Shown: positions 10,348 to 59,168 of the stretch, one piece after another | Position numbering within the stretch: the first letter of the stretch is position 1 | Layout of the letters: every line of letters begins with the position of its first letter | Assembly (NCBI GenBank): GCA_025055435.1 | Contig: JANWWN010000005.1 | Span: 25,587-84,754 of the forward strand | Origin: Cyclobacteriaceae bacterium | Lineage (GTDB): Bacteria; Bacteroidota; Bacteroidia; Cytophagales; Cyclobacteriaceae | Direction: 5' to 3' | DNA length: 59,168 nt | The notes under the pieces: model-generated | Told to the model about the DNA's origin: nothing | The model's input: only the letters and a program-made list of their open reading frames with translations | Databases searched by the model: none | Position numbers and translations under genes: made by a program

Positions 10348-10404
10348 TTTCCTGAATCATTGTAAACTGATAACACGCGGCCGGATTTTTGCGGCAGGCT
10401 TTTG

Positions 10405-10412
10405 TACCTTTG
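10405..10412 (+). promoter_or_regulatory. Bacteroidota -7 box (TACCTTTG) upstream of AsmA-like gene
   Basis: Exact match to TAnnTTTG ending 21 bp before the ATG at 10434. No TTG sits at the expected 17-23 bp distance upstream, so the -33 element is weak or missing. Its position favours the ATG at 10434 over the TTG at 10428. Confidence 0.4.
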
Positions 10413-10433
10413 TTAACATAAATCCTTTTGGCC

Positions 10434-35053: not shown

Positions 35054-35127
35054 TGGTAATCAAACTCTACTTATATTTAATTCAAAAACACTTTAAACCA
35101 GACTTTCAACCTTAAACCCATACAACA

Positions 35128-35949: not shown

Positions 35950-36001
35950 CGAGGTAAACGGGTTTAAGAAAAAAGTTGTGTAACAATTAATTAACAAGCC
36001 A

Positions 36002-37591: not shown

Positions 37592-37592
37592 T

Positions 37593-45245: not shown

Positions 45246-46106
45246 TTGAAGACCAAACGCACTTTATCGAACTGGCTAACCAACCGATACCAGCTGGTTA
45301 TACGCAACGAAGAAAACTTTGCGGAAAAAACCAGCCTTAGTTTTACCTATGCCAAGGTAATAGTGGTATTGAGCGTGGTGTTTATAGTGCTTTTTGTTGC
45401 CAGCCTGTATTTGTCGCAAACCCTGCTGGCACGCTGGTTCGACCCGCGCTTTGAACAGATGATGGTGCGGCAGGAGTTACTGACTCTGGTTGACAAAGTG
45501 GATTCGCTTGCGCTCGAGGTTGACCGTAAAGAGCAGTTCATTCAGAATATGCAGCGTGTGCTGCGCGGTGACACCAGCGCATTTACCGATCCGGTTAAGC
45601 TGCGTACCGGTCCGGCCGTGGCCGTTAAACCGGAAGGACTTCAACTGGCCCCTTCCGATTCGCAATTTCGAAAGGACTTTGAGCGATCCGACCTGGCTTT
45701 AATTACGTTGACCAGCTCGCGCTATCGCGAATTGCAGGAGACTTTCTTCTTTACGCCTATAAACGGTTTTATTTCCGATCGTTTCGATATTAAGAAAGGA
45801 CATTACGGAGTGGATATCGTAGCCAAAAGCAATGAGCCGGTTAAAAACATTGCCGATGGCATGGTGGTGTTTGCCTCGTGGACGCAGGATGCCGGTTACG
45901 TCATGATGATTCAACACAAGGGTAACCTTATTTCCGTTTATAAGCACAACGCAGAATTGTATAAAAAAGTAGGTACATTTGTTTACGCAGGCGAAATCAT
46001 CGCTATAGTTGGCAACAGCGGCGAGCTTACCAATGGCCCGCACCTTCACTTCGAACTGTGGTACAACGGTAACCCGCTTAATCCCGAAGAGTTTGTTACG
46101 TTTTAA
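45246..46106 (+). CDS. M23 family peptidoglycan metallopeptidase, membrane-anchored
   Basis: 286 residues, probably starting at TTG 45246 (no ATG nearby fits). A basic cytoplasmic tail and one membrane helix (about 36-58) precede a coiled region (66-105) and an M23 domain. Zinc and catalytic residues are complete: H186 and D190 (GHYGVDI), H234 (VYKHN), H266 and H268 (GPHLHFELWYNG). The bactofilin gene follows after 17 bp. M23-bactofilin pairs are widespread and the two proteins are thought to act together in cell-shape control, the bactofilin scaffold localising the endopeptidase. Confidence 0.9.
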   Translation: MKTKRTLSNWLTNRYQLVIRNEENFAEKTSLSFTYAKVIVVLSVVFIVLFVASLYLSQTLLARWFDPRFEQMMVRQELLTLVDKVDSLALEVDRKEQFIQNMQRVLRGDTSAFTDPVKLRTGPAVAVKPEGLQLAPSDSQFRKDFERSDLALITLTSSRYRELQETFFFTPINGFISDRFDIKKGHYGVDIVAKSNEPVKNIADGMVVFASWTQDAGYVMMIQHKGNLISVYKHNAELYKKVGTFVYAGEIIAIVGNSGELTNGPHLHFELWYNGNPLNPEEFVTF

Positions 46107-46123
46107 CTGTTAACAGAAAAATT

Positions 46124-46561
46124 ATGTTTTCGAGCAAAGAAGAAAAACGCGTAGCTGAAGAAATCACCAACTCCAGCAACACCATTGGCAAAGGAACCTT
46201 TCTGGAAGGCAACATTGAAACCTATGGCAATATCAGGGTAGAAGGCAAAGTACATGGCAACATCAAATCCAAATCGAAAGTTGCTTTGGGTAGTGCTTCG
46301 CATGTGCATGGCAATATCACTGCACAAAATGCAGACATCGAAGGCGAAGTGAAAGGCAAACTGGAAATCAGTGAGTTGCTGGTGCTGAAATCAACGGCTG
46401 TAATTAATGGTGATATTGTTACCGGTAAACTGGTGGTGGAGCCGGGAGCGGTGTTTAACGGTACCTGCCGTATGGGAGCTGCCGTGAAAGAAATTAAGAT
46501 TGGAGAAAGCAATGGGCACGGAACCCGCACCTACGGAGCCGAGCAGGCCAAAACCGTTTAA
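46124..46561 (+). CDS. Bactofilin (polymer-forming cytoskeletal protein)
   Basis: 145 residues. A short N-terminal tail leads into the right-handed beta-helix repeat of bactofilins, with hexapeptide-like rungs: NTIGKGTFLEGNIETYGNIRVEGKVHGNIKSKSKVALG, SHVHGNITAQNADIEGEVKGKLEISE and STAVINGDIVTGKLVVEPGAVFNGTCRMG. It self-assembles into filaments without nucleotide. Paired with the upstream M23 peptidase. Its 3' end overlaps the atpZ start by 50 bp. Confidence 0.93.
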   Translation: MFSSKEEKRVAEEITNSSNTIGKGTFLEGNIETYGNIRVEGKVHGNIKSKSKVALGSASHVHGNITAQNADIEGEVKGKLEISELLVLKSTAVINGDIVTGKLVVEPGAVFNGTCRMGAAVKEIKIGESNGHGTRTYGAEQAKTV

Positions 46562-46742
46562 TGCCTATTTAAAATACAGCACGTTGGCCATTCAGCTGCT
46601 GGCAACCCTTGCCTTATTCGGGTGGCTGGGGTATAAGCTGGACCGTTATCTGAATATTACTTTTCCGCTCTTTATGATGCTCTTCGGGTTGCTGGCCTTT
46701 GCCGGCATGATGTATCAGCTTTACCGATCACTCAACAGATGA
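46512..46742 (+). CDS. atpZ: AtpZ/AtpI-type F-ATPase accessory membrane protein
   Basis: 76 residues from ATG 46512, inside the end of the bactofilin gene; a TTG at 46500 is also in frame. A Pro-rich start (TEPAPTEPSRPKPF) and two membrane helices (LAIQLLATLALFGWLGYKLD, FMMLFGLLAFAGMMYQLYRSL) with the conserved G-x-LD-x-x-L pattern mark AtpZ. Such proteins help c-ring assembly and normally head the atp operon. The downstream gene overlaps by 4 bp, but no atpB follows. Confidence 0.8.
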   Translation: MGTEPAPTEPSRPKPFNAYLKYSTLAIQLLATLALFGWLGYKLDRYLNITFPLFMMLFGLLAFAGMMYQLYRSLNR

Positions 46743-47110
46743 ACTACCGGTATGTTTTTTTTCTGTTTGCCTTGCTGGCTGTGGCAGGTGCTGCCTGGTT
46801 TGCGGTTGAATACAGTGTTGTGCCCAGGCCTTCGTATTTTAAAATTATCACAGCATACCTGTTCCTTATCATGGCAGTTTGGGTTAACAGCCTGATACGG
46901 GTACGACAAAAACAACCCGAACGGTTTGTGGTTTTTTTTCTGGGCACCCTGGTCATCAAGCTGCTGGCACACCTTGGTTTTCTGTTGGTGCTGGCCTTGT
47001 CTGATAGCAGTACCCTGTTTGAAGATGTAGTTTATTTTATTGTCCTCTATCTGATTTATACCCTGATGAGTATCAGCTTATTATACAGATTTGTTCAGAA
47101 AAAATTTTGA
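46739..47110 (+). CDS. Small four-helix membrane protein of the atp leader region
   Basis: 123 residues, ATGA overlap with atpZ. Four hydrophobic segments: YVFFLFALLAVAGAAWFAVEY, IITAYLFLIMAVWVNSLI, VVFFLGTLVIKLLAHLGFLLVLAL and VVYFIVLYLIYTLMSISLLY. The size, position after atpZ and helix pattern resemble the AtpI-like/unknown gene that often lies between atpZ and atpB in Bacteroidota. atpB and the other F-ATPase genes are absent from the rest of the window. Confidence 0.65.
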   Translation: MNYRYVFFLFALLAVAGAAWFAVEYSVVPRPSYFKIITAYLFLIMAVWVNSLIRVRQKQPERFVVFFLGTLVIKLLAHLGFLLVLALSDSSTLFEDVVYFIVLYLIYTLMSISLLYRFVQKKF

Positions 47111-47140
47111 AATTCCTTTTTTTTATTGTTCATTTTAAAG

Positions 47141-48193
47141 GTGAAACCAGGTATTCATTTTGCGGCCACCTTTCTTTTGATTCTTTGCGGTTGTGGTAAA
47201 AAGGAAAAGCTTAATGAGCCCGATCCGCAGAATTTACGCAAGGAAATTCCGCCAACCGAGGTGATGACAGTTGCAGCGGCAAGGAAACCATTTGAATACC
47301 TCATTCAGGCAGCCGCTAAAATTGAATCGGCCAGCGAAGTGCAGATAAAATTTAAAAGGCAGGGCACCGTAAAGGAAGTGCGGGTGCGTAACGGCCAAAT
47401 TGTTAAGAAAGGAGATATTCTTGCCGTACTGGATTACGAACGCCAGGAATTGCAGTTGCAGAAAGCCCGGCTTGCATACGAAGAAAAACTGCTGGTTTTC
47501 CGCGACCAGATGCTGAGCTATCAGGGGTCTGATTCGGTGCGACAAAAACGGGCCGAAGCCGCTATTCGCATTAGCAGCGGACTGGCATCGGCCGAAACAG
47601 CTTTGCGCGAGGCCGAACTGGAATATCAGTTTACGTTTGTCCGGGCTGAGATAAGCGGTGTGGTTTCCGACATACAGGTAAAGCCGGGTAACCCGGTTTC
47701 GGATGGGCAGGTTTTTTGTCGCCTGCACAATCCGAATGAAATGCTGGCCATAGCCGAGGTGCTGGAGAGCGATGCAAGTTACCTGCGCTCGGGTATTTCT
47801 GCAGTTGTAAGACCGGCCGGAGGCGATAAAGATATTACGGGCCTGGTCACCGAACTTAATCCTCGGGTGGATGAGAAAACGGGTATGGTAAAGGTAAGCA
47901 TCCGGTTACCCAATAACACCGGTTTACTGCCAGGTATGCGTGCTCAGGCCATAATAAAAATACCCGGGAACCGGCACATTGTTGTACCTAAGGAGGCAGT
48001 GGTAATGCGCTCAGGCCGGCCGGTTGTGTTTACGGCTGAAGAGGGTTTGGCGAAATGGAATTACGTAGTTACGGGCCGCGAAAACGGGCGGGAAATTGAA
48101 ATTCTTGAAGGTCTGAAAGAAGGCCAAAGGGTAATCATTTCCAACAACCTGCAACTGGCACACGATGCACCTGTAGTTGAAAAAAATTATTAA
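47141..48193 (+). CDS. RND efflux periplasmic adaptor (HlyD/MFP family) lipoprotein
   Basis: About 350 residues from GTG 47141, which gives a compact lipoprotein signal (FAATFLLILCGC); a TTG at 47126 is the alternative. Family marks are the split biotinyl-lipoyl halves (VQIKFKRQGTVKEVRVRNGQIVKKGDILAVLD and FTFVRAEISGVVSDIQVKPGNPVSDGQVFCRL), a short coiled hairpin between them, and the beta-barrel end VVPKEAVVMRSGRPVVFTAEEG. Adaptors join an RND pump to a TolC channel. The candidate partners at 50810 and 55609 are on the opposite strand and separated by propeller genes, so the pairing is inferred from proximity only. It begins 30 bp after the ATP-synthase leader gene. Confidence 0.88.
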   Translation: MKPGIHFAATFLLILCGCGKKEKLNEPDPQNLRKEIPPTEVMTVAAARKPFEYLIQAAAKIESASEVQIKFKRQGTVKEVRVRNGQIVKKGDILAVLDYERQELQLQKARLAYEEKLLVFRDQMLSYQGSDSVRQKRAEAAIRISSGLASAETALREAELEYQFTFVRAEISGVVSDIQVKPGNPVSDGQVFCRLHNPNEMLAIAEVLESDASYLRSGISAVVRPAGGDKDITGLVTELNPRVDEKTGMVKVSIRLPNNTGLLPGMRAQAIIKIPGNRHIVVPKEAVVMRSGRPVVFTAEEGLAKWNYVVTGRENGREIEILEGLKEGQRVIISNNLQLAHDAPVVEKNY

Positions 48194-48458
48194 AAAAACT
48201 CGACAAAGCGGAACTAAATGCTAAGCCATATGAAAATTTAAATACTGTGAATGTTAAAAAAAATTTTTTAAGGGATTGTTAATATTTATGATGCTGGGAC
48301 TTCTCAGTGGAGTAAAGCATGGAGGGGTCGGGCCCTTTAGGCAAATGTGGAGCCTTGGTTGCAACTGGGCACGAAAATCCTACGCACACGTGCATATATC
48401 ATTTTTTTAAATGCGAATGTCAAAGAAAAGTTGGACCATTTGGTAGATGTAGTGCATT
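48194..48458. other. Intergenic region after the adaptor gene
   Basis: Apart from the Cys-rich short ORF it holds an A8T6 self-complementary tract near 48253-48272 and AT-rich DNA. I see no clear promoter or terminator. The composition shifts from moderate GC to AT-rich here. Confidence 0.35.
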
Positions 48459-48498
48459 ATGGATAGGCTACATCGAAGGAATGTTAGCTGCCGACTAG
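48319..48498 (+). other. Short Cys-rich ORF (59 codons), possible remnant of a secreted-peptide gene
   Basis: An ATG-started frame between a TAA at 48313 and a TAG at 48496 encodes a peptide with five cysteines (contexts LGKCGAL, HTCIYH, FKCECQRK and GRCSALW). It lacks a signal peptide and no in-frame extension supplies one. Its end overlaps the start of the DUF4221-like gene by 40 bp, the same peptide-then-propeller overlap seen at 54407 and 57662. It may be a decayed or frameshifted cassette peptide, or chance. No copy of the 245-bp leader is visible upstream. Confidence 0.3.
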
Positions 48499-49688
48499 GA
48501 GGAACTCCGAAGCACCTTCATAAGTTTCTCTTAATAATTGCACTGTTTTCACTTTTAGTTGCTTGTAAAGAAAAAGAAATTACACCTGAGTGTTCTGATT
48601 TTACAGAGGGAGCTACTTTAATCGTCCAGGATACAATCTCAATTTCGATTCCGAGCACTGGTTTCCCTACCTATACCCAGTTATTTCTATATAAGGACAG
48701 TTTATTATATTGTTTGAAATTAGGAACCGAGAAACTGGATATTTACAATATTTTTCAAAATGCATATGTAAAAAGCATTTCGTTGGACCCTAACTTCGTT
48801 CAGAATTTAGGAGCTTTCTTTGTCCATACTACCGATAGTATTTTTATTACTCAGGAATTAACCTATGTGTTGTTGATTAATGATCGTGGAGAAATAGTGG
48901 ATAGATATGATTTGGGCCATGCACCGTTAAGTTGGACTGGTTCTTTTGATGTTCCGGAATACTTTTTCTTTGCCGGGTCTCAAGCAGGTCTTTACTATAA
49001 TTCCAAAAGAAAAGATTTAGTGGTTACACTGACGAGTCCTGAAATCTGGTATTATGAAAACCGATCTTCATTTGGTTTGCATGGAACCTATAATATTTTG
49101 ACAAAAACTTGGAAATGTGTATTCGGTCTCTTACCGGGAGTTTATGCCCGACAAAATGTTGCGTATCCTTTTATACTATCTAATCCTTATTGCTTAAGCA
49201 TAGGTGATACCAGTTATGTTTCCTTCCCTATGGATCATAATTTATATGTTTATAATAATCAGTCAGGCGATTTATTAAAAGTTGTATGTGGTGCCGCTCG
49301 TAATTTTCAAATTGCTGAACCATTTCCTTACAGCGAACTAGATGATTTAGAACGTCAGCGTAATTTTCTTATGACAAACGGATGGTATGGCGCTTTGCAA
49401 TATCATCGAGGAGTAAAATTGTTTTCCAGAACACTTGTCAGGAATTCACAAGATGTAAATAATGAAAGGGAAACTGCTGTTATATTCTTTAACCAGAATC
49501 TAAAACGGATAGGTGAGTATGTTTTCCGAAAATCAGGACCTTTTCAGGGAGTAGGCGGAGATGGATATTCTGTGGGTTTTCCAACGGCATCCGGCTTCTA
49601 TGGGTCTTTAAAAAGCAAATTCCATAAAAGTGATGATGAACTGAGGTATTCCATAAAATTCCTTATTAGAAAGAGCCATGAGAACTAA
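48459..49688 (+). CDS. DUF4221-like propeller lipoprotein
   Basis: 409 residues. From ATG 48459 the protein has a long basic n-region and then a lipoprotein signal (FLLIIALFSLLVAC). AGGAGG at 48496-48501 lies inside this n-region without a standard start codon beyond it. The body is made of repeated strand pairs (YTQLFLYKDSLLYCLKLGTEKLDIYNIFQNAYVKSISLD, SIFITQELTYVLLINDRGEIVDRYDLG, GDTSYVSFPMDHNLYVYNNQSGDLLKVV). This layout resembles DUF4221 and related propeller lipoproteins of Bacteroidota. Codon use is AT-richer than in the neighbouring core genes. It overlaps the following gene by 11 bp, so the two are co-expressed. Confidence 0.6.
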   Translation: MDRLHRRNVSCRLGGTPKHLHKFLLIIALFSLLVACKEKEITPECSDFTEGATLIVQDTISISIPSTGFPTYTQLFLYKDSLLYCLKLGTEKLDIYNIFQNAYVKSISLDPNFVQNLGAFFVHTTDSIFITQELTYVLLINDRGEIVDRYDLGHAPLSWTGSFDVPEYFFFAGSQAGLYYNSKRKDLVVTLTSPEIWYYENRSSFGLHGTYNILTKTWKCVFGLLPGVYARQNVAYPFILSNPYCLSIGDTSYVSFPMDHNLYVYNNQSGDLLKVVCGAARNFQIAEPFPYSELDDLERQRNFLMTNGWYGALQYHRGVKLFSRTLVRNSQDVNNERETAVIFFNQNLKRIGEYVFRKSGPFQGVGGDGYSVGFPTASGFYGSLKSKFHKSDDELRYSIKFLIRKSHEN

Positions 49689-50796
49689 GTTAGTATTTTT
49701 ATTAAATGGTCTAATAATTTTCATGCCGCTAGCAGGCCAGGATTCGCTGGAATACTTCAGCATAAAAAATGTCTTTTTTTGTAACAGCTATTACCCGGTC
49801 AGTAAATTGTGGTTATTAAACGAGGGCTCCGCCTTAGGGGCACGCAGGTTTGACAACACGAACGGAAAGCATATTCGAGACATCGTGCTTATCGGTAAGG
49901 ACGGGCTGGTTAAAGATTCTTTATCTTTAATAAAAAAGTTTAGAACACTTGATTATTTTTTTCAGCAGATTGAGTGGATCTCTGTTGAGTCAGAAGACAG
50001 AGCATATATCCATAGTGGGAAAACACTAGTACCTGTTGCAATTAAGTCACAAAAAATTATTTTGGAAGACACAACCATATACACCAAAAGAAGTAGTGTT
50101 TTGCGTAATTTATACAATAAAAACCCTGATTTATTATACAGTTACATTTTAATGCATAATAATCTGTTAATAGGATACGATCGGGAAAAGCTAGTTGTTA
50201 ATAAAGATTTGCAGCGTTCAAAAATACAAGATAACAAGAACTTCCCTTATTATTGGATTGTTGACTTATCGGATACTAATTATAAAAAAGTTTATATAAA
50301 CCATCATGAGTCAAAGCCAATCACAAACTCGTTGTATTGGGATATCAAAGACTGGGATCAGACCTGGTCACGCATTGATGTATTCTCCCGCTATGTAACT
50401 ATTCACCATAACAGGATTTATTTTAGCGTTCCAAGAGCAAATAAATGTTACGTTTACGATATCGATAAAAGAACTGTTTCAAGTATACCCTATCCGGCTG
50501 TGAGCAAAAGCGAAAGTTGTCATTATTATTTCGACCCGATTACGAAACGGGAATTCGTTGTAAAGAAAAGTTCAGAGTTCAGGTATTTAATTTACGTCTA
50601 TAACGATAATCATAATAAAGTTTACCTGATAAAGGAAGTAAATCATAGACCATTTGCCATCATCAATTATAAGGTTCACCTGATCCGGGAAGAGAAAGAG
50701 GGACGGAATACATTCCTATGTCACTACCTTGTGCCACTAAAAAAATCCGATGAGGATGATTTAACCATATTGGATGAAATATCTGTAAAGCAATAG
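49678..50796 (+). CDS. Exported protein of unknown family, probably beta-propeller
   Basis: 372 residues with a signal peptide (ends near PLAGQ) but no lipobox. Family not recognised. Repeated strand-rich stretches (KHIRDIVLIGKDGLVKDSLSLI, YVTIHHNRIYFSVPRANKCYVYDIDKRTVSSIPYP, YLIYVYNDNHNKVYLIKEV) fit a propeller, like the gene before it, with which it overlaps by 11 bp. It is Lys/Asn/Tyr-rich and AT-rich. Its stop is 14 bp from that of the convergent RND gene, so it fills the gap between adaptor and pump. Confidence 0.6.
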   Translation: MRTKLVFLLNGLIIFMPLAGQDSLEYFSIKNVFFCNSYYPVSKLWLLNEGSALGARRFDNTNGKHIRDIVLIGKDGLVKDSLSLIKKFRTLDYFFQQIEWISVESEDRAYIHSGKTLVPVAIKSQKIILEDTTIYTKRSSVLRNLYNKNPDLLYSYILMHNNLLIGYDREKLVVNKDLQRSKIQDNKNFPYYWIVDLSDTNYKKVYINHHESKPITNSLYWDIKDWDQTWSRIDVFSRYVTIHHNRIYFSVPRANKCYVYDIDKRTVSSIPYPAVSKSESCHYYFDPITKREFVVKKSSEFRYLIYVYNDNHNKVYLIKEVNHRPFAIINYKVHLIREEKEGRNTFLCHYLVPLKKSDEDDLTILDEISVKQ

Positions 50797-50809
50797 ATTT
50801 CGTACTTTT

Positions 50810-53800
50810 TTAGCTGCGTTTAATAAAAGCATAATACAATAAAGGCACAAAATACAAAGCGGTAAAAGTGGCGGCAATCAGTCCGCCAATGGTGGTAATA
50901 GCTACGGGCCTTTGTAAATCGGCACCGAGTCCGCTGCTGAAAACCAAGGGTGTAACAGCCAGTACGTTGGTGCAGGTATTCATAACAATGGCTTTAAGCC
51001 GGTCGTGCCCGGCCTGCTTAATGGCCTGCTCAAGAGGCAGGTTTTCGCGCAACCGGTTAATACGGTCAATTTTAAGAATGGCATCGTTATCTAATATACC
51101 CAATACCACCACCAAACCAATACCCGACATGATGTTAAGCGTGCCGCCGGATAACCATAACAACAACAAACTCCCGGCAAATCCAAGCGGCAGGCTCATC
51201 ATAACCAGTACCGGCTGCCGGAAGGATTCAAACTCGGCCGTAAGGATAAAATAAACCAGCATAACGGAAACCATCAGAATAAGCACAAGCCTTTGCAGGG
51301 CCTGCCGGTCGTCAAACCATTTACCGGTAAAGTCGGCCATCAGACCCAAACTGGTGCTTAGCCTGTTGAAGAATTTTCGTATTTCCGGTTCATCAGTTAC
51401 TGCAGGTTCTAACGATTGATACATGCCTGAGGCATCGGCTGTGACGGCTTTTGGCATCAACATGTATTTTACCTGCAGGAACTCGCTCACCGGGTACAAC
51501 ATACCGTTCTCCGATCTTACCAGCGTGTTTCTTATGACCGTTGCAAAGTCATCCTGTTTGCCGGTAAGTACAACGCGTGTCAGTTTACCATAATCGGTTA
51601 AGTCGGTAATCCGGTAACTACTCAGTTTCATCTGCAGCGCTTCAGTTACTTTTTCAAATGAAAGGTTGTATTGCTTCAGCTTGATGATGTCGGGAACAAG
51701 CACCACACCCGTTTCGGTTTCAAAGCCTTTTCCTAAGGTAATATCCCAACGGGCGGATGCCTGTTCAAGTAAAATAATCTTCAGTGAGTCCGGAATGAGC
51801 TGTGATGACTGTGGCATGCGAAAACGTACTTCGTATTCCGGTTGCCTGCTGATAAACAATTGCTCGAATGCATTTGGTGCATCGCTAATGGTGATGCGCG
51901 ATTCCGGAAAACGTTGTTTAAAAACTTGTTTTATTTCATCAAGTCCTTCGGCACGTGTACGGCTGTTCGCGTATTTCAGATACAGCAGGGTCTGACGCGT
52001 GGTGTAAACTTCCTTATCCACAATAAACTGGCGGTGTCCTACTTCTGCTTCACTTTGAACAGGTTTGTTGGCAAGTATTTCGAGCAGTTCGGTTGTTCGC
52101 GCCTTATTTTGATGGGCATCAACAGGTACATTCCAGTCAATTTCAATAAGGGCTTCAGTCCGTTCAATTTCCGGAAAGCCGGTTTTAGGAAGAAGAAAGA
52201 GCATCGTTACCGTTAACGGAATAAGGCAACACATTACTATCAATGCAGGTTTTCGGTATCTCCATATCCAAGAAAAACTGCGGCTATACAGGGAATGCAA
52301 TACCAGAAAAAAGCGGCTGTCCTGCTGTGCCGGATATGCTTCGTTACCATACAGTTGCCGGTAAATAAGGGGTACAAGAATAAATGTACAGGCCAGCGAA
52401 ACGGAGAGAATGGCAAAAACCGAGAGAGCCTGGTCGTAAAACAAGGCCCCGGTTATACCGCTCATAAAGATAAGCGGAACAAATACAGCCAGGTTGGTCA
52501 TGGCCGAACTTACAAGTGGTATGATTACTTCCGTGGTTCCCTTTACACATGCATCGGTAAGCGCCATACCGTTTTTACGGTTCAGGCTAATCTGATCCAC
52601 TACAACGATGGAATTATCCACCAGCATGCCCAGGCCCAGTGCAAGGCCACTGAGCGAAACGATGTTAAGGGAAATATTGAACAAATAAAGCACGGCAAAC
52701 GACAACAACAGAGATACGGGCAGCACAACACCCATGATTAACGGCTCGCGCCAGTTACCCATAAATGCAAACAACACCGCAAAAGCAAATAAGCCACCAA
52801 ACACCAGCGCCTGCGTAAGGTTGTCAATGCTCAGGGTGAGCAACTCCGACTGGTCTTGCGAGGTAAAAAACCGGAGTTGGGGATAATCTTTTCTAAACTG
52901 CTCAACAGCCTGTTCAATGCGCGGCATCAGGTTGGTCATGCGGGCCTGAGCCTGCTTATGAACTGCCATAACGATACTCTCTCTTCCGTTGTACAGGTGG
53001 AAACCCTGCGGTGTTGCCGTTGTCAGACCAACAGTGGCCAGGGTGCTTAGCGGGAGTGTGATAGTTGTGTCGGGCAGTTGTACGGGCAGCTGCCTGAGGT
53101 GGTCGGCGTTATACAGCGGAGAGGAGATGCGCAGCAGGTAACGATAGTTGCCATCGCGTACGGATACAGAGGCCGGCTGCAGATTGGCCTGTCGGATGAC
53201 CTGGGTCAGCGCTTCTTCTGTAAGGCCCAGTGAGTGTAAAATTTCCTGTCGGGGTGTAATGGTTATTACTTCGTTTTGTAAGCCGTTCAGATCAACTAAA
53301 CCAGTGCCTTCCAGTTGTTCGAGGCGCTTTTTAAGGGTAAATACAGCCAATTCCGACACTGCAGGGAGGTCGGAAGGGTCAGAGGGTACAACCTGAATGC
53401 GGATTACGGGAATATCGGAAAGGCCGGCCCGCATCACCAGAGGGCGTTCGAGGTTACGTGGCAACAGGGGCGTGAGGCGGTCAATTTTTTCGTTAACTTC
53501 AATATAGGCCAGTTGCATGTTGGTGCCATGCTCAAAGCGCAGGTGGACAACACCGGTTTCAGTATAAGCCGTGCTTTCGGCATGTCGTAGTCCGTTCACT
53601 GAAAGCATGGTTTCGCGAATGGGCTTCAGTATGTTTTGTTCTATTTCAAGAGGAGGGCTGTTTGGATAGTTTACTGAAATGGTTATGAGCGGTACATCCT
53701 GTTCGGGCAGCAGCGAAACGGGCAGACGCAGAAAGGCCAATATGCTGAGTCCGGCCAGTGTAATAAATGTTACCGATACGGCAACAGGGCGATGAAGCAG

Positions 53801-53812
53801 ATAGCGCAGCAC
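50810..53812 (-). CDS. RND superfamily efflux permease (AcrB-like)
   Basis: 1000 residues with the RND plan: a first helix (MLRYLLHRPVAVSVTFITLAGLSIL), a large periplasmic porter loop, helices 2-6 with SLSGLALGLGMLVDNSIVVVDQISL, a second loop after LYSRSFSWIWRYRKPALIV, and a final helix bundle with GGTLNIMSGIGLVVVLGILDNDAILKIDRINRL. In helix 4 the usual Asp-Asp proton-relay pair reads Asp-Asn (VDNS), a variant common in many heavy-duty RND subfamilies. It is slightly shorter than AcrB (about 1050). Substrate unknown. TolC-like and adaptor genes are 1.8 kb and 2.6 kb away, separated by plus-strand propeller genes. Confidence 0.92.
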   Translation of the reverse strand: MLRYLLHRPVAVSVTFITLAGLSILAFLRLPVSLLPEQDVPLITISVNYPNSPPLEIEQNILKPIRETMLSVNGLRHAESTAYTETGVVHLRFEHGTNMQLAYIEVNEKIDRLTPLLPRNLERPLVMRAGLSDIPVIRIQVVPSDPSDLPAVSELAVFTLKKRLEQLEGTGLVDLNGLQNEVITITPRQEILHSLGLTEEALTQVIRQANLQPASVSVRDGNYRYLLRISSPLYNADHLRQLPVQLPDTTITLPLSTLATVGLTTATPQGFHLYNGRESIVMAVHKQAQARMTNLMPRIEQAVEQFRKDYPQLRFFTSQDQSELLTLSIDNLTQALVFGGLFAFAVLFAFMGNWREPLIMGVVLPVSLLLSFAVLYLFNISLNIVSLSGLALGLGMLVDNSIVVVDQISLNRKNGMALTDACVKGTTEVIIPLVSSAMTNLAVFVPLIFMSGITGALFYDQALSVFAILSVSLACTFILVPLIYRQLYGNEAYPAQQDSRFFLVLHSLYSRSFSWIWRYRKPALIVMCCLIPLTVTMLFLLPKTGFPEIERTEALIEIDWNVPVDAHQNKARTTELLEILANKPVQSEAEVGHRQFIVDKEVYTTRQTLLYLKYANSRTRAEGLDEIKQVFKQRFPESRITISDAPNAFEQLFISRQPEYEVRFRMPQSSQLIPDSLKIILLEQASARWDITLGKGFETETGVVLVPDIIKLKQYNLSFEKVTEALQMKLSSYRITDLTDYGKLTRVVLTGKQDDFATVIRNTLVRSENGMLYPVSEFLQVKYMLMPKAVTADASGMYQSLEPAVTDEPEIRKFFNRLSTSLGLMADFTGKWFDDRQALQRLVLILMVSVMLVYFILTAEFESFRQPVLVMMSLPLGFAGSLLLLWLSGGTLNIMSGIGLVVVLGILDNDAILKIDRINRLRENLPLEQAIKQAGHDRLKAIVMNTCTNVLAVTPLVFSSGLGADLQRPVAITTIGGLIAATFTALYFVPLLYYAFIKRS

Positions 53813-54012
53813 AGGACAATTTATTGTTTATCGGTTTGGAATTTCAGCAGACAAAATACGAAAACTGCCGTTTTCACTTTTTGAAATTAAGAGAAACATG
53901 GAGAAAGTGAAAAATTCACCGGATGGATGTAAGTTTTTGACTGATTTTGTAACATTTTTAATATATGTGTGTGTGTGTGTGAAACCTCTCCTATGCCCTG
54001 AAAACGCAGAAA

Positions 54013-54028
54013 GTTAACCCGGGTTAAC
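54013..54028. promoter_or_regulatory. 16-bp palindrome in leader copy 1 (candidate operator)
   Basis: GTTAACCCGGGTTAAC, perfectly self-complementary, kept in copy 3 (59057-59072) and with one change in copy 2 (57295-57310). A site for a dimeric regulator is a reasonable reading; none is encoded nearby. Confidence 0.5.
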
Positions 54029-54119
54029 GAATAAACACCATGTAAGAAAATGATGCAGATTGATTTGTAAAATTTACAACAGGTTATTTATTTCGAATCA
54101 ACATTCACCTTTATACAGA

Positions 54120-54153
54120 TCACCCGCCGGTCGTCCGGAGGGACAGCGGGTGA
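54120..54153 (+). promoter_or_regulatory. Conserved leader hairpin (candidate 5' UTR RNA element)
   Basis: 8-bp perfect stem TCACCCGC/GCGGGTGA with an 18-nt loop, 42 bp upstream of peptide 1. The equivalent in copy 2 (57402-57435) keeps pairing through a G-U change. It may control translation of the peptide gene. Confidence 0.5.
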
Positions 54154-54194
54154 ACTGCTCCGGAGGGGTGGGTGGAAAATTAAAAGATGATGTT

Positions 54195-54410
54195 ATGAAA
54201 ACCATTATCACGGTAACAATGGCATATTTACTATTCTTTGCATGGAATACACTGAAAGCACAGGTATCGCGATGTGAAGATCGGCCGAATGTTCAGAACA
54301 ATGGCTGGTGCCTGCCCGCGCCTAATGGCGGACAATACTGCGCTTCAGCGGGGTGTAACTGTACTTGTGACGGGACTTACTGGGAATGGGGTGGAGGACC
54401 CTTTCAATGA
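54195..54410 (+). CDS. Small exported Cys-rich peptide (cassette peptide 1)
   Basis: 71 residues. A signal peptide (MKTIITVTMAYLLFFAWNTL) ends at KAQ, leaving a mature peptide of about 48 residues. It has six cysteines (27, 39, 49, 54, 56, 58), including CASAGCNCTC, and a Gly/Trp-rich end (WEWGGG). The stop TGA overlaps the ATG of the propeller lipoprotein (ATGA at 54407), so the two are translationally coupled. The composition suggests a disulfide-bonded secreted peptide. No known family assigned; it is comparable in size and layout to the small secreted peptides found beside 6-bladed propeller genes in Bacteroidota (NVEALA-like), but without the NVEALA motif. Confidence 0.7.
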   Translation: MKTIITVTMAYLLFFAWNTLKAQVSRCEDRPNVQNNGWCLPAPNGGQYCASAGCNCTCDGTYWEWGGGPFQ

Positions 54411-55600
54411 ATTTCAGAAAATTCCTTTTTTTTCTTTTGATTGTTAGTAAAATGTTTGCCTGCGGTGAGTTAAAAGAAACTGCCGCAGGCAAATTTTTAC
54501 CAACCCTAACACTGGAGTTTGTTGAATGGGATACCATTCCGTTGGAAAATGAGACCAGGATTGAAGGAACAGATTTTTATTTTCATCAGCAGGATCAATC
54601 GGGTTACCTCTTTTTACATACCAGTTCTTCATTTACCCGAATTGATATGTATAACTTTTCTGAAAAAAAATTTCTGAAAAGAATTCATCTTTCGAAAGAC
54701 GGCCCTAACGGGCTCGGAACGCCTCCGTCAGGCCTGCTTGTAAAATCACCCGATACCTTATATCTCTTTTTTAACCTGGGCCAAAGACTTGTGAGTATAA
54801 ATGGAGATGGTGAGATAATCGAAAATTTTGGGTCCATCCGCAAAATGTATGAGGAAGAAAAATATCCATATGTTGAAGTTTCCGCTGTGCAACCGGCTAT
54901 TATTCAAGACGATATAATACGCTTTTGCACTTATCAGGCTGAAGGCCTGCACGAATATGGAGGGGGTCTTTATGATTTAACGGACAGAAGATTCAGCTAC
55001 TTTAAAAGGCTTCCGTACATTTATCAGGAAGGCTGGTGGGCTGGTGTTGTATATGATCGTTATTATCATACCTTAAATTATAAACAAGGTATTTATGCAT
55101 GGAGTTATGGTAATGACCATTTTATATACACAAAATCAAAAGAAGGAGAGAGAAAATATTTTGCGGCGAGTAAGTTTTTAGCTGACAGGTTAAAACCGTA
55201 TAAAAAGGAAAAAGGGAACTTCATGCAGGAAGAACTGAATTTGTATCGTCATGCGGCACTACAGGGAGGCTATTCAGCGATTAAATATGATTCATGGCAA
55301 AAATTCTACTATCGTTTTGTGATTTATCCGGTACCTTCAAACGAGTACAGAAGCCCATCCGACACCTGGAAGAAAATGGGTATAATCATACTTGACGAAA
55401 ATTTTAATTACAGAGGTGAGTTTTTAATTCCGGAGAGATTTTCCTGGTACCAATCGTTCATTGGCCCGGAAGGAATTTATTTTTTGGACCGATTATCCTT
55501 AACGAAGTCTGAAAATGAAGCTGTATTTGCCTGCTTTAAAGTAAAAAATCAACTCCCGGAAGGCACAAACCAATCACCGGATTGTACAGTTAAAAATTAA
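54407..55600 (+). CDS. DUF4221-like propeller lipoprotein, coupled to peptide 1
   Basis: 397 residues from ATG 54407, which overlaps the peptide stop and gives a clean lipoprotein signal (FLFFLLIVSKMFAC); an ATG at 54386 adds seven residues. The body has blades such as FYFHQQDQSGYLFLHTSSSFTRIDMYNFSEKKFLKRIHLSKDGPNGLG, LYLFFNLGQRLVSINGDGEIIENFG, DDIIRFCTYQAEGL and MGIIILDENFNYRGEFLIPERF. The phrase KDGPNG after a strand repeat is typical of DUF4221. Probably anchored in the outer membrane and facing the periplasm or surface. The stop is 9 bp from that of the convergent TolC-like gene. Confidence 0.72.
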   Translation: MNFRKFLFFLLIVSKMFACGELKETAAGKFLPTLTLEFVEWDTIPLENETRIEGTDFYFHQQDQSGYLFLHTSSSFTRIDMYNFSEKKFLKRIHLSKDGPNGLGTPPSGLLVKSPDTLYLFFNLGQRLVSINGDGEIIENFGSIRKMYEEEKYPYVEVSAVQPAIIQDDIIRFCTYQAEGLHEYGGGLYDLTDRRFSYFKRLPYIYQEGWWAGVVYDRYYHTLNYKQGIYAWSYGNDHFIYTKSKEGERKYFAASKFLADRLKPYKKEKGNFMQEELNLYRHAALQGGYSAIKYDSWQKFYYRFVIYPVPSNEYRSPSDTWKKMGIIILDENFNYRGEFLIPERFSWYQSFIGPEGIYFLDRLSLTKSENEAVFACFKVKNQLPEGTNQSPDCTVKN

Positions 55601-55608
55601 GCCAACGT

Positions 55609-57063
55609 TTATTTACTCAGCAGCGGCTTACCTTCCGAAAAATCATACAACGTAAGTCTTCGCAGGTCGAAGTAAGCCGCCCAAAAACTGCGCAGGGCCT
55701 GCACATAACTGCGCACGGCGTTATCTTTTTCATTCAGCGCCTGGGTAAATTCAGTAAGCGTAAGCTTATCCTGACGGTAGCGTTCCTGGGCAGCCATAAA
55801 ACGTTCCTGCGCCACAACAGCGGCTCTGCGCGAAAGACTGACCTGATATTGCAATGCGGTAAGTTGATTAACGAGCGTGATGATTTCCTGTTCGAACTTG
55901 ATTTCATCCAGTTCAATAAGATATTCGGTAAGTTGTTTGCCGGCCAGCGCTGTTTGTACCTGGGCTTTGTTGCGGCCCCAGTCAATAACCGGGATACTGA
56001 AGCCTATGTTGATACGCTGCTGACTGAGCGGGTTGGCATACAACTGGTTAAAACGATCGTCACTGCCGGTAAGGCCAAAAGATGCCGATAAGGTAATCTG
56101 GTTTCGCTGGGCACGCGCCTGAGCTACATCGCGTTCGGCTTCCAGGCGCCTGCGCTCAAAAGCAATGAAGTCGGCGCGGTTCTGACGGGCCAGCATCAGG
56201 GCCTGATTCACTTCCACTTGTAGTTTGGGAAGTTCTTCCGGAAGAATCAATACGAAAGCAGAAGTATCGGGCATGCCGATGAAGAGGCGTAACTGGACGC
56301 GGGCATTTTCCAGGCCAATGCGCGAAGTAGCAGCTTCCTGCTGCGCTTTAATATATTGAAGTTCCGATTGCAGGAGCTGGTCTTTGTTTATGGTTCCCAG
56401 GTCGAACCTGCGCCGGGCGATGCGGAAGGTGGTGTCGGTGGCACCCAGATTAAACCGGGCAAGTTCAACGTTGCTTTGGAAGTCCAGCATATTAAAATAG
56501 TAATCAACAAGCTGGCGGGCAACGTACTCGGTTTCCTGTACATATTCTCGTTTTGACTCCTCATAGCGCAGTGGTTCGGTAAGGCGGTCCCAGCGCAGCC
56601 GGTTGAAACCAAACAGAGGCTGCTGATAGCTGATGTTAACCGCTGTTCCGCTCCATTGGCTGAAGTCAATAAGATAATCCTGGAACCAGTTGAGGTTGGA
56701 ATTCAGCGAAATTTTACCGCCGGTCCACATGAGTGGTTGCTCCAGGCTGAGGTTCACAAAAGGGTTGGTACGCTGGCGTTCCTGATAAATGAGCGAGCCA
56801 TCGTCCAGCAGGTTCTGGATGTAGTCCCTGTTAAAGTCGGGCAGGCTACCGCCAAGCTGAATCTGCGGGTTGTAGTTGGAGCGGAAGGTGCGGTACTGCC
56901 AGTAGCGGTTTTCTTTGCGGGTTTCCGCTATGCGCGCCGCAGCCGACTGCCTGCGGGCGATGTTAAGGATTTCGGCAAGGGTGTATTGCTTGCTTTGGGC
57001 ATACACGTGGCCTGCGGTGTAGGCCAGGGCACTGGTGAGGAAGAGGGTTAGTAACCTTATCAT
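55609..57063 (-). CDS. TolC-family outer-membrane efflux protein
   Basis: 484 residues. A signal peptide ends at VYAQ. Two OEP repeats follow with long helices: YTLAEILNIARRQSAAARIAETRKENRYWQYRTF near the start and RREAERDVAQARAQRNQITLSASFGLTG, NIGFSIPVIDWGRNKAQVQTA, ITLVNQLTALQYQVSLSRRAAVVAQERFMAAQERYRQDKLTLTEFTQALNEKD in the second half. It forms a trimeric channel. It is the likely exit partner of the RND pump 1.8 kb downstream on the same strand, from which it is separated by cassette 1 on the opposite strand. Confidence 0.9.
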   Translation of the reverse strand: MIRLLTLFLTSALAYTAGHVYAQSKQYTLAEILNIARRQSAAARIAETRKENRYWQYRTFRSNYNPQIQLGGSLPDFNRDYIQNLLDDGSLIYQERQRTNPFVNLSLEQPLMWTGGKISLNSNLNWFQDYLIDFSQWSGTAVNISYQQPLFGFNRLRWDRLTEPLRYEESKREYVQETEYVARQLVDYYFNMLDFQSNVELARFNLGATDTTFRIARRRFDLGTINKDQLLQSELQYIKAQQEAATSRIGLENARVQLRLFIGMPDTSAFVLILPEELPKLQVEVNQALMLARQNRADFIAFERRRLEAERDVAQARAQRNQITLSASFGLTGSDDRFNQLYANPLSQQRINIGFSIPVIDWGRNKAQVQTALAGKQLTEYLIELDEIKFEQEIITLVNQLTALQYQVSLSRRAAVVAQERFMAAQERYRQDKLTLTEFTQALNEKDNAVRSYVQALRSFWAAYFDLRRLTLYDFSEGKPLLSK

Positions 57064-57217
57064 GGTGAATGAATTTTCAGGTAAAAAAGAATAAGTAGTT
57101 TTTAACGGAAGGGAAAAATAAAAAATTATAAGAGCTTACTGAAATGACGGCCTGATGCGAGCTGAATATGAATGGCGCCTGCGGATGTTTCAGGGGGTAA
57201 GAAAAAATTTGCGGTAC

Positions 57218-57460
57218 GATGTAAGATTTTGATTGTTTTTGTAACATTTTTAGTGTGTGTGTGAAACCTCTCAGATGCCCTGAAAGCGAAGAAAGTTAAT
57301 CCGGGTTAACGAATATACACCATGTAATAAAATGATGCAGATTGATTTGTAAAATTCCTAACAGGTTATTTACTTCGAATCAACATTCACCTTTATACAG
57401 ATCACCTGCCGGTCGTCAGAAGGGACAGCGGGTGAACTGTTCCGGAGGGGTGGGTGGAAA
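57218..57460 (+). repeat. Leader repeat copy 2 (about 243 bp)
   Basis: Same landmarks as copy 1 in the same order. The TG tract is shorter (five repeats). The palindrome has one change (GTTAATCCGGGTTAAC, 57295-57310). The hairpin stem 57402-57409 with 57428-57435 carries a C-to-T change that turns a C-G pair into U-G and keeps pairing, and the loop is again 18 nt. Peptide gene 2 starts 17 bp after it. The remaining 150 bp of the intergenic region toward the TolC-like gene is not repeated and should hold that gene's promoter. Confidence 0.9.
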
Positions 57461-57477
57461 CAGAATAAAATTTTACT

Positions 57478-57675
57478 ATGCAAATTAAATTTCTGATTAG
57501 ATGTATATTGGTTATTTTGCTAATGGGTTTAACAACCTACATAGTGCCCATGGAAATCAAGGCTCAGCAAAATGATAAAGGCACCTTAATGGGTAATCCT
57601 GAAGGAACAGCCTTTTGTTGTGCAAGTGGAACCAATAGCTGCAGTGCAGCGAAATGTGGAAATGACAATCCTTAG
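57478..57675 (+). CDS. Small exported Cys-rich peptide (cassette peptide 2)
   Basis: 65 residues. A hydrophobic signal (IRCILVILLMGLTTYIVPM) ends at KAQ, leaving about 35 residues with four cysteines (47, 48, 55, 60) in the context FCCASGTNSCSAAKC. The CAS(x)G..C core resembles CASAGCNC of peptide 1, although the rest differs. The start lies 17 bp after leader copy 2. The propeller gene starts inside it at 57662 (14-bp overlap). Probably a disulfide-bonded secreted peptide, family not recognised. Confidence 0.68.
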   Translation: MQIKFLIRCILVILLMGLTTYIVPMEIKAQQNDKGTLMGNPEGTAFCCASGTNSCSAAKCGNDNP

Positions 57676-58873
57676 ATTTTCGGAAAGGATAGCTCTGTCT
57701 GGAGCTATCCTTTCATTTATATGTTTATTAGTGCTATGCATTTCCTGCAATAGGAATGAGAAGGCAGTTGCCTATGAACTGAAAAAAATTCATGTACCTG
57801 AAAAAGTAACGCCTTCAGTCAAACTCTCTTCATGGGCACATGAAATAGTGATTCTTCCTTTGCAGACCACACCATCCAGCTTAATTGATAACGTTGGAAG
57901 GATAGTGACTACGGATAATTACATTTTGATATCCGGTAGTAGTATATGGTTATTTGATAAATCAGGTAATTTTTTGAGAACGATTGGAAAAAGAGGCGAG
58001 GGACCCGGAGAATATGCATCGGTTTACGATGTAATTATGAATGAAGATGAACGAATCGTGGAGGTATTGGACCGGGACCGACAAAAGGTTTTAACATACA
58101 CAATGGATGGTTCATTTGTTGGCAGCTGGTCAGCGGAAATATATTCACTTTCTTTTACGAAATTATCAGGGAATTACTATTTCTACGGCGGAAGTGAGTT
58201 TAATGAGGACTCTTACCATAGGATCTATATTAAAAAAGATGGTAGAACAATCGGGCGACTCCTTCCTTTCAATCCGGTGCAAAGCAAATTTCTGCATCTG
58301 CGAGAAACTAATAATTTTAATCTTCTTGGTGATACGTTGGTCTTTATGTATTCATTTTCCGATACAGTTTATACCCTGCGAAATAATCAGGCGTATCCCC
58401 GATATTTCATTAGTTATGGTAAGTACCAATTACCTGCAGCCTTGCTTCAACGCGACTACGACAACATTGCCGAGTGCTTAATGGAATTGCGCAAAACCAA
58501 CTATGCGTTTCTTGTTACACGCTACTCGGAAAACACCCGCCATATTTATTTTTCCTTCGAAAGAGGGGGTAAGCGCTATCAGTATATCTATGATAAAAAT
58601 AATAACAGAGGGCTTGTTTTTGAGCATACTGAAGATGATATGCTACTTCATACCCGGCGATTACCCATGACGATAAGGTCTGTTTATAAGGATTATTTGG
58701 TTTCAGTAATGGATGCGGGCAATTTCAGACAGAAGATGGATTCGTTGAAATGGAATGCTATCAACTATCGGCAGTCCGTAAAAAAGTATCCGGTCTTAGA
58801 AAAATTGTCGGATGAATTAGAAGATTCCGATAATCCGGTTTTGCTTTTTATCAAGCCTGCAATAAAGGATTAG
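57662..58873 (+). CDS. 6-bladed beta-propeller lipoprotein, coupled to peptide 2
   Basis: 403 residues from ATG 57662; the frame is open from 57620, but that part overlaps the peptide. A lipoprotein signal (LSGAILSFICLLVLCISC) is followed by SSWAHEIVILPLQTTPSSLI, DNYILISGSSIWLFDKSGNFLRTIGKRGEGPGEYASVYDVIMNEDERIVEVLDRDRQKVLTY and further strand repeats. IGKRGEGPGEY is a signature of the Bacteroidota 6-bladed propeller family (DUF5128-like). Thus the two cassettes share leader and peptide type but carry propellers of different subfamilies. Ligand unknown. Confidence 0.8.
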   Translation: MTILRFSERIALSGAILSFICLLVLCISCNRNEKAVAYELKKIHVPEKVTPSVKLSSWAHEIVILPLQTTPSSLIDNVGRIVTTDNYILISGSSIWLFDKSGNFLRTIGKRGEGPGEYASVYDVIMNEDERIVEVLDRDRQKVLTYTMDGSFVGSWSAEIYSLSFTKLSGNYYFYGGSEFNEDSYHRIYIKKDGRTIGRLLPFNPVQSKFLHLRETNNFNLLGDTLVFMYSFSDTVYTLRNNQAYPRYFISYGKYQLPAALLQRDYDNIAECLMELRKTNYAFLVTRYSENTRHIYFSFERGGKRYQYIYDKNNNRGLVFEHTEDDMLLHTRRLPMTIRSVYKDYLVSVMDAGNFRQKMDSLKWNAINYRQSVKKYPVLEKLSDELEDSDNPVLLFIKPAIKD

Positions 58874-58979
58874 ATCTTCTATTGATTGACCGTAATGAGA
58901 ATGGACGGTTGTTCATAACGGTATAATCACTGCCTTTAGTGTTACAGGATAAATTCAGGCTGAAAAAATTTAACAACCC

Positions 58980-59168
58980 GATGTAAGATTTTGATTGATT
59001 TTGTAACATTTTTAGTGTGTGTGTGAAACCGCTCAGATACCCTGAAAACAAAGAAAGTTAACCCGGGTTAACGAATAAACACCATGTAAGAAAAAAGTGC
59101 AGATTGATTTGTAAAATTTCTAACAGGTTATTTACTTCGGATCAACATTCACCTTTATACAGTTCACC
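58980..59168 (+). repeat. Leader repeat copy 3, cut by window edge
   Basis: Same order of landmarks as copies 1 and 2 up to the first hairpin arm, where the window ends. The TG tract has five repeats as in copy 2, and the palindrome is perfect (59057-59072). Its presence predicts a third peptide-propeller cassette just outside the window. The 107 bp between the propeller stop and the repeat contain nothing I recognise. Confidence 0.85.

Follow-up and report, generated by a model that had tools for sequence, protein, structure and literature searches.

The question raised by this locus is what is made by two gene pairs that differ in their coding parts and yet stand behind nearly identical leaders. 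The window, by which we mean the whole analysed stretch of 59,168 nucleotides (nt) from Cyclobacteriaceae bacterium (contig JANWWN010000005.1, here C56), forms the right end of its contig in a genome of 2.79 Mb in 100 contigs that is 97% complete (the source genome, G000). Close to this end, two cassettes (W1 and W2) each consist of a leader, a gene for a small exported cysteine-rich peptide and an overlapping gene for a propeller lipoprotein, and a third leader is cut by the contig end. We propose, with a confidence that falls somewhat short of even, that the cassettes encode a disulfide-rich, bacteriocin-like exported peptide effector together with a cognate binding or immunity lipoprotein of the propeller type, that the array is switched as one, and that a neighbouring pump is the probable exit. 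The elements of the cassettes in the window are as follows.

53926 to 54177, + strand: leader 1, with a TG tract (53966-53981), the palindrome GTTAACCCGGGTTAAC (54013-54028), a promoter-like TTTG ... TTATTTCG and a structured 5' untranslated region (5' UTR)
54098 to 54178, + strand: 5'-UTR RNA element of leader 1; three stacked helices, minimum free energy (MFE) -36.2 kcal/mol, z -3.38, with covariation
54195 to 54410, + strand: peptide gene 1; 71 amino acids (aa), Sec-type N-terminus ending KAQ, six mature Cys
54407 to 55600, + strand: propeller lipoprotein 1 (DUF4221); 397 aa, 4-nt overlap with peptide gene 1
54451 to 54497, + strand: hairpin 3' of peptide gene 1, within the lipobox region of propeller 1; 17-nt arms, none of 100 shuffles as good
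57218 to 57460, + strand: leader 2; palindrome with one change, TG tract (57253-57262), promoter-like pair and 5'-UTR RNA
57380 to 57460, + strand: 5'-UTR RNA element of leader 2; MFE -35.6 kcal/mol, z -4.25
57478 to 57675, + strand: peptide gene 2; 65 aa, four mature Cys, core DKGTLMGNPEGTAFCCASGTNSCSAAKC
57662 to 58873, + strand: propeller lipoprotein 2 (DUF5128); 403 aa, 14-nt overlap with peptide gene 2
57683 to 57714, + strand: hairpin 3' of peptide gene 2, within the propeller coding sequence; 14-nt arms, none of 100 shuffles as good
58980 to 59168, + strand: leader 3, cut by the contig end; 93% identity to leader 2 over 189 nt, TG tract (59015-59024)

The repeats and reading frames reported in a first-pass annotation of this sequence proved to be real. 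The leaders starting at 53926, 57218 and 58980 form ungapped families with 79-93% identity over 205-208 nt, and in a gapped comparison with leader 2, leader 1 was 89% and leader 3 (cut after 189 nt) 93% identical. The six and four mature cysteines were recovered, as were the overlaps of 4 nt (propeller start at 54407) and 14 nt (57662), and the coding parts do diverge to different propeller subfamilies, DUF4221 for propeller 1 and DUF5128 (6-bladed) for propeller 2. With leader 2 as the query, we obtained eight matches in the source genome including leader 2 itself, three in the window and five on another contig, C26. Behind four of the C26 leaders stand a gene for a small exported Cys peptide and then a propeller gene; the fifth match (cassette E) is a 50-nt remnant in front of a propeller-like gene with no peptide gene. 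The contig end coincides with the window end (C56:84754), the last 118 nt of the window, in leader 3, are identical to leader copy A of C26, and the ends of C56 and C26 have a common junction (94.7% over 264 nt). The identity and the shared junction indicate that the assembly broke in the leader repeat, and that cassette 3 was lost in this way. On C26, fragments of a TolC 3' end were seen in front of leaders A and B (L010, reverse complement 1-100 and about 2100-2150), which indicates that a piece of TolC was copied along when these cassettes were duplicated.

A covariance model of the 3' part of the leader (R1) found 19 leader copies in four of the 17 genomes of the genus (six in G000, nine in G013, three in G016 and one in G014). 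Since 18 of these 19 copies had served to build the model, the G014 copy was the sole independent find. All 19 precede a propeller gene, and 17 have an intact gene for an exported Cys peptide in between; in the two exceptions the peptide gene has no ATG (G13c) or is truncated (G13h), and both propellers are kept. These counts support the earlier idea of a modular family of peptides and cognate lipoproteins under common control, and none of the 19 copies stood in front of unrelated genes or of no gene, which had been named as the finding that would speak against it. Remnant leader E, the cut leader 3 and a decayed copy in G013 (L025, reverse complement 7284) were left out of the 19, and the search scored 150 of 580-1153 candidates per genome, so that copies may have been missed. 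Among 196 sampled genomes of the family, R1 found no leader outside the genus, in a search with strict filters (23 candidates per genome) in which G013 itself was not among the matches and copies may therefore have been missed, too. A search of the plasmid database PLSDB with the leader gave no match. A 31-nt match in G068 (E 7.7e-5) covered only the leader 5' end and overlapped the start of an unrelated gene; it looks like chance and was excluded from the leader counts.

The peptides of the leader-bearing cassettes are 62-73 aa long and have a hydrophobic N-terminus; over the peptides compared, the Cys number ranges from two to seven in total, and peptide 2 carries one more Cys within its signal sequence. 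The assignment of signal sequences rests on inspection by eye and on a hydrophobicity rule. In the peptides of W1, W2, A, G13b and G13f the likely cleavage site has A before Q, which fits the Q-rule of Bacteroidetes, that is cleavage before Gln, as stated in an excerpt of PMC10653852. Peptide 1 matched no Pfam and no NCBIfam family, and the scans of the peptides against both collections returned sub-threshold matches only, the best of them DUF6520 (E 0.03) for a G013 peptide. The cassette-1 peptide resembles peptides beside G13x and G13c. Relatives of the cassette-2 peptide occur in G014 and G016, with the mature part conserved and the signal part diverged, and an exact motif pattern located the same type in nine stretches from eight genomes of Algoriphagus, Cognataquiflexum and ACE_BAC7. 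Algoriphagus hitonicola and A. boritolerans are among the carriers of the module. The ratio of nonsynonymous to synonymous change (dN/dS) of the mature part was 0.15 for W2-G016 and 0.08 for G014-G016 with dS near 2, while dS was saturated for W2-G014. The low dN/dS indicates that this type of open reading frame (ORF) is real and under purifying selection, so the check on selection came out positive for the cassette-2 peptide type.

The partners belong to named families. Propeller 1 matched PF13970 with E 1.3e-23 (84.6 bits against a Pfam cut-off of 23.4, ORF from 54386) and is related to PDB 3s9j (E 8.1e-21); propeller 2 matched PF17170 with E 5e-45 (154.5 bits against 22.9, ORF from 57620), and its structural model (pLDDT 77) gave propeller-type matches, the nearest PDB entry being 4raa of Bacteroides fragilis. 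When 20 further propellers were scanned, 19 matched DUF4221, DUF5128 or TolB_like (PF15869) above the Pfam cut-off, those of G014 and G016b being DUF5128; the propeller-like gene of remnant cassette E was the one with no Pfam match. The G13h partner (a 325-aa ORF) was assigned by phmmer and the G13f propeller by its 99% identity to that of G13b. An exported Cys peptide gene stood in front of 33 of 42 propellers versus 3 of 113 other ORFs, figures that are biased by regions chosen via leader, peptide or DUF4221 matches. The propeller set behind them came from one phmmer pass with 26 seed proteins, and one seed (49678-50796) matches no other propeller and was counted by seeding alone; one of the three other ORFs precedes a propeller according to Pfam, and the distance rule overlooked a G534 peptide whose propeller lies 167 nt away. 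Reading of the DUF4221 loci gave a less biased count: of 17 such genes outside G000, 7 have an exported Cys peptide gene directly upstream and 10 do not, four of these in one tandem cluster; DUF4221 was found in 9 of 149 genomes of the class. Between cassettes C and D of C26 (L010, reverse complement 9557-12171) we also noticed genes for two proteins of about 240 aa with no convincing Pfam family and for a 377-aa lipoprotein with weak WD40-type matches.

Peptide similarity was then compared with propeller similarity. The Pearson coefficient was 0.795 over 35 pairs, and it was 0.458 over the 30 pairs left after five close relatives had been dropped; none of 5000 permutations reached either value. 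In the thinned set, the top eight pairs by peptide similarity all fall in the upper 14% for the propellers, and the link fades from the ninth.

A further common feature is a hairpin within the first 90 nt counted from the peptide stop codon. It was matched by at most five of 100 shuffles in 29 of 33 cassettes, in 28 of them by at most one; G13a, G002b, G135a and G534a failed, and G13x, G16d, Alg66 and Alg68 were left out of the test. On a simple reading the hairpin would act in partial termination or 3'-end protection and so leave the peptide in excess.

The genes around the cassettes suggest a way out of the cell. Upstream of cassette 1 and between the two cassettes the window contains:

47126 to 48193, + strand: HlyD/CusB-type membrane-fusion lipoprotein (MFP) of an RND pump; PF16576, E 5.3e-18, residues from 47150
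48459 to 49688, + strand: propeller-like lipoprotein with no peptide gene in front; BLAST match to G016 cassette propeller a, E 7e-8
50810 to 53812, - strand: RND permease 1 (RND1), divergent from leader 1; PF00873, E 2e-158
55609 to 57063, - strand: TolC-type outer-membrane efflux protein between cassettes 1 and 2; PF02321, E 8.5e-37

The lipoprotein at 48459-49688 matched no Pfam propeller family in the Pfam scan. The + strand cassettes thus lie among genes for MFP, RND permease and TolC, a tripartite set encoded together (PF16576, PF00873, PF02321), and a second RND permease is encoded among the cassettes of C26. Pump-linked cassettes were found in six species, four of the genus (G000, G013, G016 and G002) and two from two other genera (G049 and G135). 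In G002, where R1 finds no leader, two cassettes composed of a helix-turn-helix (HTH) gene, peptide, propeller and thioredoxin-like gene lie between its two RND genes; in G049 an HTH gene, two peptide-propeller pairs and a thioredoxin-like gene all lie between MFP and RND1; and in G135 two cassettes adjoin the MFP-RND1 genes. The connection between cassettes and pump is one of gene linkage, from which we infer that the pump may export the peptide. We also tried TolC as a marker of the locus and discarded it: in 11 of 12 loci in other genomes of the genus its match adjoins, by eye, a MacB-like gene and is likely a paralogue, and the twelfth locus begins near a contig start.

The same linkage could mean that peptide and propeller are an envelope or redox accessory of the RND pump, which sense or buffer a thiol-active or metal substrate. 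The cassettes in or beside pump loci in six species, the Cys-rich peptides and the thioredoxin-like third gene would suit such a role. We consider it rather improbable, as peptide sequence and Cys number (2-7) are too varied for one substrate and other cassettes showed no pump gene nearby.

The thioredoxin-like gene is best seen in the nine stretches from Algoriphagus, Cognataquiflexum and ACE_BAC7. There, a propeller follows the peptide in eight, the ninth running off the piece, and a thioredoxin-like lipoprotein is the third gene in six. Its CxxC motif was invariant in all nine aligned proteins. A model of the protein (pLDDT 73) gave nearly all thioredoxin-fold entries among the best 50 listed, with modest TM-scores near 0.4 and a single match with E below 0.001 among the matches listed. 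As a separate observation, about 0.7 kb upstream of a cassette-2-type peptide gene, Algoriphagus hitonicola has a gene (L067, 619-2784) for a protein that resembles an ABC exporter with a C39 peptidase domain.

A small HTH gene precedes the cassettes in three species, G002, G016 and G049 (HTH_11 by Pfam for G002 and G016), and was not found in G000, G013 or G014. It bears on the main rival explanation, in which each cognate surface propeller would read its exported peptide as a strain-specific signal, the array setting kin recognition or density sensing. Cognate pairing, purifying selection on mature peptide 2, the common operator and leader and the HTH_11 gene would all be at home in such a system. 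Against it, no transducer (a histidine kinase, or a TonB receptor with an anti-sigma factor) was recognised by eye beside the cassettes, and the HTH gene was, as noted, not found in G000, G013 or G014; we therefore regard signalling as unlikely, though it deserves serious attention. In other genomes (G011, G004 and G009; L165, L167 and L168), genes for small HTH-regulator-like proteins immediately adjoin what are, by eye, ABC exporter or C39-like genes, so that secreted peptides may have a type of regulator in common.

Our tentative preference remains for an exported effector with its cognate immunity or binding lipoprotein. In such a scheme, a regulator would bind the leader palindrome and switch the whole array together, and the hairpin would let the peptide exceed the lipoprotein in amount. 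Sec would export the peptide to the periplasm, where a thiol oxidoreductase, cassette-borne in relatives and supplied from elsewhere in G000, would oxidise it. The resident tripartite RND pump might then carry it out, in the way of MacAB with E. coli heat-stable enterotoxin II, and the propeller would bind the peptide, either protecting the producer or holding the peptide at the envelope. We favour this because the arrays are patchy (4 of 17 genomes), a near-identical duplicate exists (the G13b and G13f propellers, at 99%), the peptides are very variable and the similarities of the partners go together by Pearson. The hairpin, the CxxC thioredoxin-like lipoprotein, the pump linkage and the fit to the Q-rule point the same way. 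Furthermore, propellers outlive peptides: all 19 copies have kept a propeller, the peptide gene is damaged in two of them, and some propeller-like genes have no peptide gene at all (48459-49688 of the window and cassette E on C26), an asymmetry expected of immunity genes.

Several observations weigh against this proposal. Spearman coefficients of peptide and propeller similarity were 0.083 (35 pairs) and -0.026 (30 pairs), neither significant (reached by 319 and 3195 of 5000 permutations), probably due to most peptide pairs being unalignable; the predicted cognate pairing has the support of Pearson and not of Spearman. The young duplicates G13b and G13f, the only near-identical pair within a genome, differ by 3 nt in the peptide, all nonsynonymous with dS of 0, and so say nothing for constraint, and purifying selection suits signalling as well as it suits attack. 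The remnant leader in G013 (L025, reverse complement 7284-7346, missed by R1) precedes only decayed fragments, and there the propeller is lost as well. RND1 was found in 70 of 196 family genomes, with an MFP-like ORF directly upstream in 27 of the 30 loci shown (read by eye, within flanks limited to 1.5 kb). The pump therefore exists independently of the cassettes and is older than they are, and the cassettes either came to it on more than one occasion or were lost from it frequently. The 8-kb Algoriphagus stretches, in which only same-strand ORFs were read, showed no recognisable pump gene, nor did the G182 and G534 stretches, and the G014 cassette lies beside only a broken TolC gene, so that the pump is not a necessary companion. 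The window cassettes themselves contain no recognisable thioredoxin-like gene. Finally, terminator-like hairpins are common after bacterial genes, and the figure of 29 in 33 was set against shuffles only.

The leaders themselves suggest how the array could be controlled. From 5' to 3' they contain a TG tract, a palindrome (in G000), a promoter-like pair and the structured 5' UTR. The TG tract, of 3-13 units, is present in 15 of the 21 leaders examined, and all five TG/CA runs of at least five units in the window and C26 lie inside leaders; such tracts of variable length are possibly a phase-variable element. The palindrome GTTAACCCGGGTTAAC, with up to one mismatch, has six sites in the whole of G000, all of them in leaders, and the reversed control pattern has none; accordingly, the array may be addressed through one regulator. 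In the leaders of G016 cassette a (L026) and G013 copy h (L025), another palindrome, AGTGCAA-N5-TTGCACT, stands in place of that of G000, suggesting a different regulator in each lineage. The promoter consensus of Bacteroidota consists of TTTG followed by TTACTTCG. A script found this Bacteroidota-like pair in 15 of 21 leaders, missing it in three of G013 and in all three of G016.

In an alignment of 18 copies of the 5' UTR (A1; six from G000, nine from G013 and three from G016), we found three stacked helices, with 94.2% of cells pairing; the structure tested was the one named after the prediction on this same alignment had been seen. Changes on both sides of a pair occurred in 26 cells versus 10.7 (standard deviation (SD) 2.5) in shuffles, and the covariation score was 0.282 versus 0.177 (SD 0.012), neither value being reached by any of 500 shuffles; sliding the partners by one to three columns brought the score no higher than 0.117. 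Six pairs had a double change (a count reached by 71 of 500 shuffles) and there were 19 further pair types (reached by 135), neither of which is exceptional. As the copies represent few lineages, the covariation rests on few events. When six leaders were folded singly, four beat their shuffles (z -2.68 to -4.25) and two did not (z -1.66 and -0.70). An Rfam cmscan of 46000-59168 with E up to 5 gave three matches (E 0.7-1.6), none of them in a leader. The leader RNA thus has no Rfam match and is observed in this genus only.

Another explanation of the leader's conservation, to which we give hardly any credence, is a conserved leader peptide in place of a structured RNA. An ORF at 54060-54410 does extend across leader 1 in the frame of peptide 1; however, its counterpart in leader 2 ends at 57488 in a frame that differs from that of the peptide, copies differ by one-nt indels, and the changes follow base pairing.

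The leaders are more alike within genomes (means 0.93, 0.91 and 0.80) than between them (0.67-0.72), and only 0.70 alike even for the peptide type common to cassette 2 and G016. For this reason the leaders seem to be homogenised and the cassette types older. The same numbers would be expected of a recombination or mobility site, for example one read as a folded single strand as in integron attC, with the cassettes as cargo, and the TolC-end fragments before leaders A and B and the strong fold could be taken in this sense. We think this very unlikely, as the fold lies 3' of the promoter-like pair, directly before the peptide start codon, it was seen at the 5' end of cassettes only, it covaries as helices, and gene conversion accounts for the homogeneity.

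Outside the genus the same arrangement appears with a named peptide family. In the distant genome G534, an NVEALA peptide (PF14055) precedes a DUF4221 or other propeller, and both peptides scanned matched the family (E 2.8e-14 and 1.2e-12), so NVEALA and the window peptides hold the same position before the same kind of propeller. Both kinds are small and exported, vary in their Cys-rich C-termini and are encoded directly before a propeller lipoprotein; they differ in that the window peptides have a plain Sec-type signal, no NVEALA pro-region and no PF14055 match. Sixteen further peptides outside G534 were also unmatched, in a listing to E 10 whose filters drop most matches above 0.1. PADLOC gave no match for the peptides, the propellers or the thioredoxin-like protein, and weak matches for the HTH protein. 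Speculatively, the parts would make up one modular system across Bacteroidota, with hypervariable Sec-exported peptides (NVEALA included), dedicated propellers, oxidation by cassette-borne thioredoxin-like proteins and RND extrusion, and with array control in this genus through a 5'-UTR RNA, a palindromic operator and a phase-variable TG tract; we regard this as improbable in its full extent.

Compared with known systems, the cassette partners are members of DUF4221 (PF13970), DUF5128 (PF17170) and TolB_like (PF15869), with solved relatives 3s9j and 4raa. Those entries name no function, and the present analysis adds that their members recur together with Cys peptides, thioredoxin-like proteins and RND loci. 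Heat-stable enterotoxin II is a Sec-exported, disulfide-bonded peptide. Its secretion in E. coli has been linked to the tripartite pump MacAB, according to an excerpt of PMC7403778, which gives a precedent for a small exported peptide with secretion tied to such a pump; MacB is, however, an ABC protein, whereas the pump here is of the RND type. Bacteroidetocins are likewise small, Cys-bearing exported peptides, and their loci carry a thiol oxidoreductase, according to an excerpt of PMC6671954. The leader of Bacteroidetocins A and B is 15 residues long and ends in double glycine, and their transporter is a peptidase-containing ABC protein. The cassette peptides have instead a Sec-type signal (by reading of the translations), a propeller partner and an RND pump. 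No short double-glycine leader was found in the translations, and no C39 ABC transporter was recognised by eye among ORFs of at least 90 aa in the window and C26, where no profile scan was made.

The module as such was not found among the matches listed from open-licence PMC texts, as judged by title and start of abstract, and nothing was found on NVEALA or DUF4221 in the open-licence PMC literature, where BF3164 gave one paper in a listing. What seems to be new is the module; the protein families as names, and a peptide with a cognate partner as a kind, are already known. NVEALA, DUF4221, DUF5128 and TolB_like are thereby brought together in a single testable module that predicts a partner for each peptide, and the module is tied to an RND pump locus, for which a natural peptide substrate would, if true, be notable. 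Should the peptides be antagonistic, they would form a large and still untapped supply of Gram-negative bacteriocins whose immunity partners would be known from the start; should they be signals, the ligand-receptor pairs would be given.

Elsewhere in the window, at 33965-38498, four successive genes resemble, by eye, gldK-gldN, which we take to be part of the type IX secretion and gliding machinery.

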